From: Desulfurellales bacterium
GTDB taxonomy: Bacteria > Campylobacterota_A > Desulfurellia > Desulfurellales > Hippeaceae
Length of the DNA: 44,844 nucleotides
Direction of reading: 5' to 3'
NCBI GenBank assembly: GCA_027014115.1
Contig: JALWEJ010000036.1
Location: 1 to 44,844 of the forward strand
A program made the translations under genes and the position numbers. The notes under the pieces were generated by a model. The model did not search any database, was not told the origin of the DNA, and was given only the letters and a program-made list of their open reading frames with translations. Within the stretch, counting starts at the first letter, position 1. Each line of letters starts with the position of its first letter. Shown one piece after another: positions 13,606 through 44,844 of the stretch.

Positions 13606-13664
13606 TAACAATTTGGAATACATACTTTTTTTAGTTGATAATCAAGGTATTATTTAGTATACAA

Positions 13665-15713
13665 ATGTATATGAATGATATTGAGAAAAAATTCAAAAGA
13701 AAATTTATATGGATTTTGATTGTAATAAGTTTGACAATGCTTGTTGTCGTATCTTTTATGTTTTATGCAAGCTTAAAAAGGCTTCATAATAATGTTGTTG
13801 AGCAGTATGAACATATCTACGAAAGAAATGAAAATATTTTTGTAAAAGAAACCGTTAAGAAAATAATAAGAGATATAGAACTCGCAAGAGGCAAAATGTA
13901 TACGGATGTAGAACTTGCTTTAGAGGATAGTGTTATCAGAGGTTGTAATGTTGCAGATTTGTTATATAAAAGACTGAAAAATAAAGTAAGCAAAAAAGAG
14001 CTTCAGTTGATTATACTTTCAACACTAAAGCGTGAACACAAAGATTTTATTGTTGTTGATGAAAACGGTATTGTAAAAATGCATCCTTCCATTAAGACGG
14101 GTGTAAGTATATACAACTTTCAAGACGCATTCGGTAATAAAATTTTTCAGATTGTTAAAAAGAATTTAAAAACGAGCAAAGAACACGGTACGTTTCTTTG
14201 TTATTATTTGCGCTTTCCGGGTTTGTATAATACCGTGAAGCAAACCAGACAGGTTTACGGAAGGCTGTTGTATGTTAAATATTTTTCTCCTTATAAATGG
14301 GGTATAGCGAGAATTGTATTCTATAAAGACATAGAAGAAAAGCTGAAAAAAAATATTGTTCAAAAATTGAACAAATTCAGATACGGTAGCAATAGAAAAG
14401 GGTATGTATTTGTATTGAAAATAGATGCAACGAGCGATAATGTGAAGGTATTTAGAGTTGTTAATCCTAATATGCCTAAAAAACTAATGGGAACAGAGAT
14501 TCCTTTGGATAGAAAAGATATTGACGGTAAACTGTTTATGAAAGAAATGTTGAATAAGGCTTTAAGTGTTGGAGAAGGTTTTGTTAGGTATAAATTTAGG
14601 ATTCTGGGAACAGATACTGTATCGACCAAAATAACCTATATTAAATATTATCCTCAGTGGCATTGGATTATAGGCACGGGATATTATCCGGAGATATTTA
14701 AGAAGGAGTTGGAAAAAAGAGATACTGTTTTGAATTCTTTTATCCTAACAAATGTTATTGGGCTGTTTGTTGGGCTTTTAGTGTTGGAATCTTTTCTTTT
14801 TATAATTGTTATTATTTTTATGAATAAGATGATGAAGAGTGCAAGTGACTATAGACACAAAATTGAATTTGAAGAAAAATTTCAAAAGCATCTTATAGAA
14901 TCCATCCCAAACCCTTTAATTATTGTATCCAAAGACGGTGAGGTTGTGAATATTAACAGAGCATTTGAGGAGTTTTTCGGCATAAAAAAGGAAAATTTGA
15001 CAGATTGTGAAAATGATTTACAGATCAAGATGTTAAAGGATGATATATTGAGGCATATGAATAAACATAAAGAGTGTATAAATTTAATGAATTTGGTTGA
15101 TGCAGGGGGAAAGCTGAAAAATATCGAGTTACATAAATCTCTTTATTATGACAAAGATGAAACACCAGAAGGTGTTATCTGTGTTATGTTTGATGTAACA
15201 AAACAAAAGGAATATGAGGAGGAACTAAAGATTGCAAGTATAAGAGATGAACTTACCGGTTTGTATAATAGGAGATATTTTAAAAAAGTTTTTGCAGCGG
15301 AGATTGTCAGATCAAAAAGATATAACAATCCACTTTCAGTTATTATGTATGATATTGACCATTTTAAACAAGTTAACGATACATATGGGCATCAGGTCGG
15401 TGATTATGTATTGAAGACTCTATCCGATATTGTAAAAAAACATATACGCTCTTTGGATTTTCTGTTTAGGATAGGCGGAGAGGAGTTTGTTATTCTTCTT
15501 ATAAAAGCTGACGAAAATGTTGCTTTTAATGTAGCCGAAAAGATTAGAAGGCGTGTGGAAAATAATAAATTTTCAGATGTCGGAAAAATCACAATCAGTC
15601 TCGGTGTTGCACAACTAAAAGAAAACGATACGCCTGATAGTTTGTTAAAAAGAGCAGATGATGCTCTCTATGATGCAAAAAATTCAGGCAGAAACAACAC
15701 AAAAATTCATTAA
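13665..15713 (+). CDS. Cache-PAS-GGDEF diguanylate cyclase
   Basis: This 682-residue membrane sensor probably makes cyclic di-GMP. It has an N-terminal transmembrane helix (about residues 14-36), a roughly 300-residue extracytoplasmic double-Cache-like domain with two WxxGxG-type ends (YSPYKWGIAR-like and QWHWIIGTGYYPE), a second transmembrane helix, a PAS domain beginning IPNPLIIVSKDG, and a C-terminal GGDEF domain with DELTGLYNRR, YDIDHFKQVND and an intact GGEEF active site. An RxxD inhibitory site (RSLD) stands five residues before GGEEF, so product inhibition is likely. The frame is open from a TTG at 13635; I chose the ATG at 13665 though no strong ribosome site is visible. The ligand cannot be predicted. 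Confidence 0.9.
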   Translation: MYMNDIEKKFKRKFIWILIVISLTMLVVVSFMFYASLKRLHNNVVEQYEHIYERNENIFVKETVKKIIRDIELARGKMYTDVELALEDSVIRGCNVADLLYKRLKNKVSKKELQLIILSTLKREHKDFIVVDENGIVKMHPSIKTGVSIYNFQDAFGNKIFQIVKKNLKTSKEHGTFLCYYLRFPGLYNTVKQTRQVYGRLLYVKYFSPYKWGIARIVFYKDIEEKLKKNIVQKLNKFRYGSNRKGYVFVLKIDATSDNVKVFRVVNPNMPKKLMGTEIPLDRKDIDGKLFMKEMLNKALSVGEGFVRYKFRILGTDTVSTKITYIKYYPQWHWIIGTGYYPEIFKKELEKRDTVLNSFILTNVIGLFVGLLVLESFLFIIVIIFMNKMMKSASDYRHKIEFEEKFQKHLIESIPNPLIIVSKDGEVVNINRAFEEFFGIKKENLTDCENDLQIKMLKDDILRHMNKHKECINLMNLVDAGGKLKNIELHKSLYYDKDETPEGVICVMFDVTKQKEYEEELKIASIRDELTGLYNRRYFKKVFAAEIVRSKRYNNPLSVIMYDIDHFKQVNDTYGHQVGDYVLKTLSDIVKKHIRSLDFLFRIGGEEFVILLIKADENVAFNVAEKIRRRVENNKFSDVGKITISLGVAQLKENDTPDSLLKRADDALYDAKNSGRNNTKIH

Positions 15714-42031: not shown

Positions 42032-42102
42032 CTTTGGTGAAAAGGGATATTTCGTATGGAAAGTTCTTGAGAAACAAAATATATGAAATCAAGGCAAGAA
42101 AC

Positions 42103-44079
42103 ATGAAAGTTAAAGTTGGTATTTTTATAATTGTCTCTATTTTTCTCTCATTCTTTTCAAGTACTGTTTCATATTCTAACAATATTTCCAGTTTATTGGG
42201 GGAATATGCCCAAAAAGCAGATTTATCACAAAAGACAAAACAGGAAGCATCTGGGCATCTAATTATTTTTACAAGGACTGATCTTGACAAAATGAAAATA
42301 AAATCCTTGACTGAATTAATCAACTATATACCTTTTATTAGATATAGCGAAAACGGAACTAATCTAAGCGATATAACTTATGTACCATATCAGTATGGTA
42401 CATTTAATCCAATTGTAGTCTATCTAAACAACAAAGAAATCACATCACCGTTTTTTGGTGGAGGATTTCAGATTATATCTAAGATGGATATGGATTTTAT
42501 AGACCACATTGAAGTTTATCTGGTTGTTCCCTCATACAATATAGGCTTACATTCAGCTTTATATGTTATAAAGCTCTATACAAAAAGAGGCTATAGAGAA
42601 AACTCTACTGTGCTTGGCTCGTATTTCGGATCATACGGAACAAATAGTCAATACATATACAATGGTAAAGGTAATGAGGATTTTTCTTATTTACTTTATA
42701 TAAATCATAAACAGCTTAAAAGAAAAAAGATATACCACAAAGTAAAAAAAACAACATATGACCTTTCAAGAAACTCGTATAATTATGATATTTACGGAGA
42801 AATTGAAAAAAACAATATCAGAATACAAGGATTGGCTTCATTTATAAATTTGGATAATTTTATAGGCAGAAGCTGGGATATAACAACTAAAAAAGCAAAT
42901 TCAAAATTTAACTATCTATCAGGATTATTAGAATATGCGTCGGATGATAAATCTCTAAAAGCCGCCATTGATTATTCATATTTTTTAACAAAAAGCACTC
43001 AGTTATCAGACGGACCATTGGGTTTTCTGCCAATTCCACCCAAATACCCAACCTATAACAATTTTGATTTAAAGTTAAAAGAAAAATTGTTAAATGCAAA
43101 TATCAAGAAAAACTTCAATTCAAAATACAACAGTCTGCTTTTTGGTATTATGGGTCGCTATAAAAAATTCAACTTTGATAAATATAAAACAAACATGCCG
43201 GGAATGGGTTATATAACATTACAGATTCCGGGCTACAACAGAGAATATATATATAATTTATATCTTGAAAATCAATATATGCCAAACCCAAAAAGCATCT
43301 TTATGATTTCTTTAAAATACGAAAAGCATATACCTAATGGCGGCATAAGAGGTTATTCGCTGTTTGGAGCAAAACTTGGATACATACATAATAATAATAA
43401 CCTAACCTTCAAAACCTTTTTGGCATACAAAAACAATCCGATTTCATCTTACGTTCTCTTTAAGCAAAAAGCTCTGGGTTACAAAAGAGTTGCAAAATCA
43501 ACTACAATAGCAGCATCTTCTGAAGTTGAATACAGAAAAAATTCCTCTATGTACTCTGTATTGTTAATCCAAGCATGCACGAAAAATTACATCTATTTCA
43601 TAGGCAACTACAACAATTTTGATAAAATTTTCATGGTAAGCGGCATATCTTTAAAATACAAATATTATTTTGATGTCTTCAATAAAATAGAGATAAACGG
43701 ATGGTACGTAAGGGCACACAACGCTCCATCACCATCAACTGTATTGCTCTCAAAAAATGCAAAATTAGGAAAAATGAATGTAAATCTTTTCGGTGGTTAT
43801 ATATCGATATTTAACAGAATAGGCAAATTCGACTTTTTTAACAATTTATCATACAAAGGACTATACAATGACAATAGGCCGGCTTTTAATCTAAGCTCTA
43901 CAATAACATATAACCCTACAAATAATTTGAGCATATATCTAAAAGGCATAAATTTATTTAACAGAAGCGTAACAACAGATTACATCGCCATAAATCCTCT
44001 AACAAATCAAATTTCAACACTAAAAAATATTCAGTCAATTGATAGGAGTATATGGTTTGGGGTGGAGTATACATTTTGA
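42103..44079 (+). CDS. Plug-domain outer-membrane beta-barrel, TonB-dependent-receptor-like
   Basis: The 658-residue protein starts with a signal peptide (about residues 1-24), then a plug-like domain with LIIFTRTDLDKM, SLTELINYIPF, IVVYLNNKEI and DFIDHIEVYL, followed by a long barrel region with alternating aromatic strands and a C-terminal WFGVEYTF ending in Phe, the outer-membrane insertion signature. No clear TonB box is visible after the signal; instead there is an ADLSQKTKQEASGH segment. I started it at the ATG at 42103 (AAGG eight bases upstream) because it gives the signal peptide; the frame is open 23 codons further. The next gene starts within its stop codon. Import of a ligand or ligand sensing at the outer membrane are both possible. 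Confidence 0.8.
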   Translation: MKVKVGIFIIVSIFLSFFSSTVSYSNNISSLLGEYAQKADLSQKTKQEASGHLIIFTRTDLDKMKIKSLTELINYIPFIRYSENGTNLSDITYVPYQYGTFNPIVVYLNNKEITSPFFGGGFQIISKMDMDFIDHIEVYLVVPSYNIGLHSALYVIKLYTKRGYRENSTVLGSYFGSYGTNSQYIYNGKGNEDFSYLLYINHKQLKRKKIYHKVKKTTYDLSRNSYNYDIYGEIEKNNIRIQGLASFINLDNFIGRSWDITTKKANSKFNYLSGLLEYASDDKSLKAAIDYSYFLTKSTQLSDGPLGFLPIPPKYPTYNNFDLKLKEKLLNANIKKNFNSKYNSLLFGIMGRYKKFNFDKYKTNMPGMGYITLQIPGYNREYIYNLYLENQYMPNPKSIFMISLKYEKHIPNGGIRGYSLFGAKLGYIHNNNNLTFKTFLAYKNNPISSYVLFKQKALGYKRVAKSTTIAASSEVEYRKNSSMYSVLLIQACTKNYIYFIGNYNNFDKIFMVSGISLKYKYYFDVFNKIEINGWYVRAHNAPSPSTVLLSKNAKLGKMNVNLFGGYISIFNRIGKFDFFNNLSYKGLYNDNRPAFNLSSTITYNPTNNLSIYLKGINLFNRSVTTDYIAINPLTNQISTLKNIQSIDRSIWFGVEYTF

Positions 44080-44507
44080 AAAAAATCGCATTGTCTACTA
44101 TTGCCTTTATATTTATTAGCATTATAGCACATGCCACAAGCTTATATGATATAAAACTGGAAATCTTATCATCGGTAGCTCACGGTTTATTAGGCAATAA
44201 AAATATTGCCATATATCTGACCGATAATTCGTTTATACAAAAAGCTCCTAAGAAGAAAGTATTTGGTTTGGAGTTTGTGAATGACTGCAATAAAGCCGAT
44301 TTGATAGTTGGAAAAAGTTTTAAAGGATTAAGCAAATCATGCTTAGAAAAATGCATTTTTGCAACAAATTATAATTGTTATCAACAGCCCAACGTCTTGG
44401 GTGCCCTGTTCTGGCAAAAAGGAAGACCTGTGTTAATTTTAAAAAAGAGTGTTGTAGAAAAAAAACACATTAATATTGGACATTCACTTGAGAGGTATTT
44501 ACAGTAA
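44076..44507 (+). CDS. Small secreted protein, YfiR-like periplasmic candidate
   Basis: The predicted 143-residue product starts at a TTG overlapping the stop of the barrel gene, with a GGAG about 11 bases upstream. It opens with a signal peptide (MKKIALSTIAFIFISIIAHA). The rest contains ILSSVAHGLLGNKNIAIYLTD, a CNKADLIVGKSF segment, ATNYNCY and ALFWQKGRPVLILKK, a pattern that reminds me of small periplasmic proteins of the YfiR kind or an analogous family encoded beside plug-domain barrels and sensor proteins. Four cysteines are present. The role is not established; my best reading is a periplasmic ligand or signal carrier between the barrel and the downstream membrane protein. Confidence 0.6.
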   Translation: MKKIALSTIAFIFISIIAHATSLYDIKLEILSSVAHGLLGNKNIAIYLTDNSFIQKAPKKKVFGLEFVNDCNKADLIVGKSFKGLSKSCLEKCIFATNYNCYQQPNVLGALFWQKGRPVLILKKSVVEKKHINIGHSLERYLQ

Positions 44508-44844
44508 AATCTATTATCTTTATTCTAAAATAAAAGGCACTCTATGTCTGCAAAAAATCCTTATTTTTATTTTATTCCTTCTGTTTTTATCACTTACGTG
44601 GATTTACTACAGTTTCATAAAAGCAACCACATTAACTTTCAAGAAGGTGGAGTCCGCAGAAATACAAAATGTTAAAAATCTCTCCTTTTTGGTGGAAAAA
44701 AACCTAAATTTTAATTTAAAAGAAAAAAAAATATTAAATAAACATTTTTCTATTAAGAAAGCCGTATATTTATTTGAAAAAAACAAAAACATGCTCGATA
44801 GATTTAATAATTTTCTATCCTTGTATATTAATAAGGGAGTAAGA
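44488..44844 (+). CDS. N-terminal part of a membrane sensor protein, cut by the window end
   Basis: A frame with no stop runs 119 codons to the last base. It likely starts at a TTG at 44488 or 44476, overlapping the preceding gene by 20-32 bases. A transmembrane helix lies at about residues 26-47 (QKILIFILFLLFLSLTW), followed by a charged helical extracytoplasmic region with many Lys and Asn residues. The layout is that of the start of a sensor kinase or diguanylate cyclase, but no output domain is within the window. There is no ATG start, so a simple ORF search for ATG starts would miss it. Confidence 0.55.
   Translation, partial: MRGIYSKIYYLYSKIKGTLCLQKILIFILFLLFLSLTWIYYSFIKATTLTFKKVESAEIQNVKNLSFLVEKNLNFNLKEKKILNKHFSIKKAVYLFEKNKNMLDRFNNFLSLYINKGVR

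Follow-up and report, generated by a model that had tools for sequence, protein, structure and literature searches.

The YfiBNR system of Pseudomonas aeruginosa combines an outer-membrane component, a small periplasmic protein and an inner-membrane GGDEF enzyme (PMC3375315, PMC4655355). In the crystal structure of the YfiB–YfiR complex, the C-terminal region of YfiR, including strand β7, binds YfiB, and this surface overlaps the residues implicated in the binding of YfiN (PMC4655355). Divergent Yfi systems exchange the GGDEF domain for GGDEF-EAL or for a histidine kinase, their operons mostly lack YfiB and their outer-membrane input has been reported as missing; R. marinus is one of the species listed as having distant homologues of YfiNR (PMC3375315, the main text of which contains no occurrence of 'TonB'). 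HmsCDE of Y. pestis is another tripartite c-di-GMP system (PMC5550408). The Pfam title of the family of YfiR is 'YfiR/HmsC-like'. In surface signalling of the FecA–FecR–FecI type, a TonB-receptor-fold protein serves as the outer-membrane sensor.

We describe here a three-gene locus at the end of the window (the whole stretch of DNA analysed, 44,844 nucleotides), which has partners of the same three kinds as YfiBNR: an outer-membrane component, a small periplasmic protein with a predicted YfiR fold and an inner-membrane GGDEF enzyme, here with a GGEEF motif. The outputs of related loci also vary like those of the divergent Yfi systems (GGDEF, GGDEF-EAL or histidine kinase). However, YfiB is an OmpA-like lipoprotein, whereas the outer-membrane protein of the triad is a TonB-receptor-like barrel; the small protein is shorter than YfiR and lies outside its family, DUF4154; and the sensor is Cache-like (from weak Pfam matches) and has no HAMP, in contrast to the PAS/CHASE8–HAMP sensors of the YfiN type. 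The same differences, including that of sequence membership, separate the triad from HmsCDE, which it resembles as a tripartite c-di-GMP system. It shares a TonB-receptor-fold protein at the outer membrane with the FecA–FecR–FecI type, but its barrels have no STN domain (no Pfam match among 55) and its output is c-di-GMP or a phosphorelay; no FecR or ECF sigma gene belongs to the conserved unit, in which only the small protein and the output enzyme stand beside the barrel (61 loci). Its sequence, its sensor domain and its outer-membrane partner all place the triad outside YfiBNR; by analogy, it probably works like it.

The three genes and their products

The three genes overlap (Table 1). Gene 1 starts with an ATG, giving 658 residues (681 if an in-frame TTG at 42034 were used instead), and its product has a signal-type N-terminus and a terminal Phe. 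Gene 2 starts with a TTG that overlaps the TGA stop of gene 1, and its product has a single N-terminal hydrophobic stretch. Gene 3 starts with a TTG within gene 2 and stays open for 123 residues to the contig end; it is cut because the window is a complete contig (C36). This layout agrees with a first-pass annotation of the locus, which had read a plug-bearing barrel with a terminal Phe, a secreted protein of 143 residues starting in the stop codon of the barrel gene and, inside the second gene, a membrane protein with one transmembrane helix and a periplasmic region. The last point holds for the window, but not for the joined protein described below, which has two such helices.

Table 1. Positions in the window of the three genes and of features within them
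Feature	Position	Strand	Description	Evidence
Gene 1	42103..44079	+	Predicted TonB-receptor-like plug/barrel outer-membrane protein, 658 aa	ORF, Pfam, AlphaFold, Foldseek
Gene 1 codons 28–51	42184..42255	+	Conserved mature N-terminal segment, usual place of the TonB box	Alignment of 55 barrels
Gene 1 codons 46–139	42238..42519	+	Predicted plug domain	PF07715, AlphaFold
Gene 2	44076..44507	+	Small secreted protein, 143 aa, predicted YfiR-like fold	ORF, homologues, AlphaFold, Foldseek
Gene 2 codons 109–118	44400..44429	+	Near-invariant motif GA(L/F)FWQKGRP, C-terminal β-hairpin	Alignment (n = 62), model
Gene 3 (cut at contig end)	44476..44844	+	Predicted Cache-like/GGDEF diguanylate cyclase: N-terminus, TM helix, start of periplasmic domain	
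Gene 3, first transmembrane helix region	44527..44625	+		Sequence of joined protein

The gene 1 product is predicted to have the plug and large barrel of TonB-dependent receptors. Its AlphaFold model (pLDDT 89.8, pTM 0.88) has only TonB-dependent transporters as top Foldseek matches (PhuR, PqqU, PfeA, FoxA and BtuB; E-values down to 2e-20). The match of its own plug to PF07715 (Plug) is below the cut-off (E = 6e-4), but 49 of 55 homologues match this family at E ≤ 0.01 (best 2e-10) and 11 of the 55 match the TonB barrel model. A PDB sequence search with the barrel gave no match. After the signal peptide, the 55 barrels have a mature N-terminal segment with the consensus LDxLLxxYxxxxDLSxxTKxExAG, and Thr45, Gly51 and Met64 are invariant. 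The absence of an obvious TonB box, remarked on at first reading, extends to the whole barrel family: the pattern occurs in the mature N-terminus of none of the 55 (one loose match sits in a signal peptide). As a positive control, six different TonB receptors of the ordinary kind, each with its start intact, were taken from the same family of genomes, and five of them do have a box (NTIVVTA/NVIVVTA). For want of a box, a plain TonB-dependent transporter was set aside as an identity for gene 1, but the window's genome itself encodes TonB and another TonB receptor, so that the barrel may still transport. A TonB-receptor mutation in PMC8919034, which looked promising, is unrelated.

The sequence of gene 2 has no consistent match in Pfam, NCBIfam or the PDB sequences, and scattered single matches look like chance. 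Its AlphaFold model (pLDDT 94.8) was matched by Foldseek to single-domain substrate-binding proteins of Rhodothermus, to type I binding proteins and to YfiR structures (4zhu, 4xjy and 4yn7). The YfiR entries have probabilities of 0.92–0.99, mostly 0.99, TM-scores of 0.50–0.60 (0.55–0.60 for the three named) and E-values of 0.03–0.14; since these E-values are modest, the predicted likeness is at the level of the fold only. In a profile–profile comparison (hhalign), gene 2 and YfiR align collinearly over the full length, but the score is marginal (E = 0.009, probability 4%). The families listed for 62 gene 2 homologues do not include PF13689 (DUF4154/YfiR), and a family scan of the window's genome found no member of it. 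Membership of DUF4154 was ruled out by sequence, and only the analogy of fold was retained. Type I substrate-binding proteins score like the YfiR entries, so gene 2 could instead be a ligand binder.

In the near-invariant motif of gene 2, GAFFWQKGRP, Gly109, Lys115 and Arg117 are invariant, Trp113 is conserved at 95% and Pro118 at 98% (n = 62). In the model and the hhalign alignment, the motif falls on the hairpin that matches the YfiB-binding C-terminal strand of YfiR. A cysteine pair (codons 71–89, 44286–44342) is common to 43 of the 62 small proteins; it resembles the redox-sensitive Cys71–Cys110 pair of YfiR and may provide a redox input.

The remainder of gene 3 lies at the start of another contig of the same genome (G000:C37:1-914). 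The last bases of C36 overlap the first of C37 by 8 bases (GAGTAAGA), and the frame is kept on merging (...INKGVR/YVYIIYKDRKG...). With a gene 3 homologue of the same family as query, residues 2–118 match in the window and residues 117–419 at C37:3-908. This join, made from overlap, frame and homology and not from reads, is very likely, as frame and homology agree. The joined protein would have 424 residues, two transmembrane helices (about 18–50 and 223–251) and a periplasmic domain of about 170 residues. Its continuation on C37 holds a GGEEF motif (RYGGEEF), the catalytic motif of diguanylate cyclases, which predicts cyclase activity, and its homologues match PF00990 with E-values down to 3e-44. 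Gene 3 is thus best read as an inner-membrane diguanylate cyclase with the order TM, Cache-like domain, TM and GGDEF, one of the outputs that the first reading had proposed to look for beyond the contig end. Among its homologues (set A6), two have a weak dCache_1 match and none has CHASE8 or HAMP at E ≤ 0.01. An Arc_PepC match on the cut gene was below the cut-off and was dropped, because the continuation is GGDEF. Elsewhere in the window (13635–15713) is a further membrane GGDEF protein of 692 residues, unrelated to the triad.

Conservation and output exchange in Campylobacterota

The complete order barrel, small protein, GGDEF protein occurs in six further loci of the window's family. The barrel is present in several genomes of this family and in two Campylobacteraceae MAGs (L013 and L014), and L014 has the same triad with a GGDEF-EAL output. 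Of 397 sampled genomes of Campylobacterota, the phylum of L014, 87 match the small-protein profile; in the window's family, 6 of 16 genomes carry the small protein. The triad is therefore an accessory module.

We inspected 61 Campylobacterota small-protein loci, namely L014 and 60 fetched with strong and weak profile matches. A barrel adjoins the small protein in 59 of them (the exceptions are L086 and L094), and an output protein adjoins in 59, downstream in 58 and upstream in one (L117), with none in L080 and L086. The outputs comprise 52 GGDEF proteins, mostly with EAL, and seven histidine kinases (L095, L101, L107, L110, L121, L129 and L131). Except in L107, these kinases match the cyclase profile, and most keep a related sensor domain. 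The spacing is mostly −28, −13, −4 or 0 bases between barrel and small protein, and −7, −4 or −1 between small protein and output. The overlapping order of the three genes is conserved far beyond chance. This agrees with the similar triads that the first-pass annotation placed in Campylobacterota genomes, and the conserved adjacency that it had asked about is present; both of its suggested outputs, GGDEF and HisKA/HATPase, occur. The recurrence of the trio across Campylobacterota most likely reflects an envelope-spanning sensing system.

In the two kinase loci checked, a REC–PAS–EAL response regulator comes next after the kinase (L095:5587-7557 and L121:5392-7389), so that the path may end in c-di-GMP there too. 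Some loci depart from the simple layout. In L089 (137-3879), two tandem barrels of the family precede one small protein and one cyclase; in L130, the barrel gene is split, its two parts being separated by about 3 kb that contain other genes, while small protein and cyclase are intact; and in one genome (G011; L040 and L043), two near-identical small-protein copies lie at contig ends, with a cyclase after one only.

True YfiR beside similar barrels

The short gene 2 family was found nowhere outside the window's family in a diverse set of 386 genomes. True YfiR (DUF4154) occurs in 30 of these 386 genomes and in 33 of the 397 Campylobacterota genomes. In most of 20 DUF4154 loci of the diverse set, YfiR directly follows a barrel with an N-terminus of the SLEELMNIxVTSVSK type and is followed by a kinase (14 of the barrels were identified by profile match), and true YfiR triads are also found in Campylobacterota (e.g. 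L211, L212 and L216). The DUF4154 operons of Campylobacterota and of other phyla thus have the same order, or the same three partners, as our triad. Nearly all of their barrels lack a TonB box, and the barrels are homologous to the gene 1 type along their length (hhalign E = 8e-27, expected anyway of TonB-receptor folds). They differ from the triad in that the periplasmic gene is a true DUF4154 member and the sensor, where tested, is CHASE8 (five of five kinases). A literature search for the barrel–YfiR (DUF4154)–CHASE8 kinase/cyclase architecture found no description of it.

In several loci YfiR is fused to the output enzyme. A YfiR–GGDEF fusion directly follows a TonB-receptor-like barrel in L220 (3770-5293), L222 (3565-5064) and L223 (2248-3789), making a two-gene form; L225 (2325-4235) has a barrel followed by a protein that combines YfiR with a SpoIIE-type phosphatase, and in L224 (1860-4409) the fusion partner of YfiR is a hybrid histidine kinase, with a divergent barrel alongside. 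Such fusions link YfiR with the enzyme that gives the output. Given the shared slot and the predicted fold, gene 2 likely acts with its output enzyme, by analogy, as fused YfiR does.

A proposed relay across the envelope

The reading that we consider probable is a YfiBNR-like c-di-GMP relay, in which the triad is a translationally coupled, trans-envelope module and a receptor barrel lacking the TonB box takes the slot of YfiB. The barrel would be a receptor and docking site rather than an energised importer, its conserved periplasmic N-terminal segment replacing the TonB box. Gene 2, a periplasmic protein with a predicted YfiR-like fold, would move to and fro between this barrel and the sensor domain that gene 3 exposes to the periplasm. 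As in YfiBNR, its position would be set by the binding of a ligand or by an altered plug, and would in turn switch c-di-GMP synthesis by gene 3. The sequences show which genes are present, their order and coupling, the GGDEF motif, conservation and the exchange of output domains, and models predict the folds; we infer that the barrel senses a ligand, that the contacts are direct and that gene 2 represses rather than activates. The trans-envelope sensing chain of the first-pass annotation thus gains support from the GGDEF output and the ordered co-occurrence of the genes, which run counter to both outcomes that it had named as refuting (a third gene with no output domain, and no conserved co-occurrence), and the relay role it gave to the periplasmic protein from the YfiR-like fold, from true YfiR in the same slot elsewhere and from the fusions.

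The main rival to this relay is substrate carriage by gene 2, in an uptake system with signalling attached: the barrel would transport, and gene 2, as a single-domain substrate-binding protein, would deliver what has been imported to the Cache-like domain in gene 3, so that a ligand is relayed and there is no protein–protein switch. Cache domains usually bind small ligands, the best Foldseek matches of gene 2 include single-domain and type I substrate-binding proteins besides YfiR, gene 1 has the predicted fold of a TonB receptor and the genome encodes TonB. Yet the TonB box is missing from all 55 barrels, the conserved unit holds no transporter genes, the C-terminal hairpin with the near-invariant residues of gene 2 corresponds to a surface through which YfiR binds proteins, and beside similar barrels true YfiR can form a single protein with its output, which makes carriage rather unlikely.

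It is less probable still that gene 2 is a chaperone-like periplasmic factor for the assembly or stability of the barrel and that the cyclase is merely co-expressed. A small periplasmic protein gene that directly follows and overlaps an outer-membrane protein gene would suit such a role, as would L080, where barrel and small protein have no adjoining output gene. But the output gene is kept in 59 of 61 loci, its domain type being swapped while most keep a related sensor, L094 retains small protein and cyclase without a barrel, and the predicted fold of gene 2 is YfiR-like. A chance or passive gene neighbourhood, for which we found no support although the module is accessory, is hardly credible given ordered adjacency with short overlaps in 59 of 61 loci of divergent genomes.

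Returning to the relay, we tentatively extend it to a wider reading, in which TonB-box-less TonB-receptor-like barrels could be sensors in the outer membrane, and not transporters, and could amount to a large class that is apparently undescribed; they would occupy the slot of YfiB in Pseudomonas and signal via YfiR-fold periplasmic relays to c-di-GMP enzymes and kinases. The relays would be true YfiR in many phyla, and in Campylobacterota and the window's lineage an unclassified short family, which is present in about one fifth of the sampled Campylobacterota genomes and has no Pfam or NCBIfam model. The two-gene forms, a barrel with a YfiR–enzyme fusion, let this idea be tested directly. If the barrel is the missing input of the divergent Yfi systems, many c-di-GMP enzymes and kinases of unknown signal would gain a candidate receptor at the outer surface, and some plug-bearing barrels at present taken for importers would turn out to be receptors.
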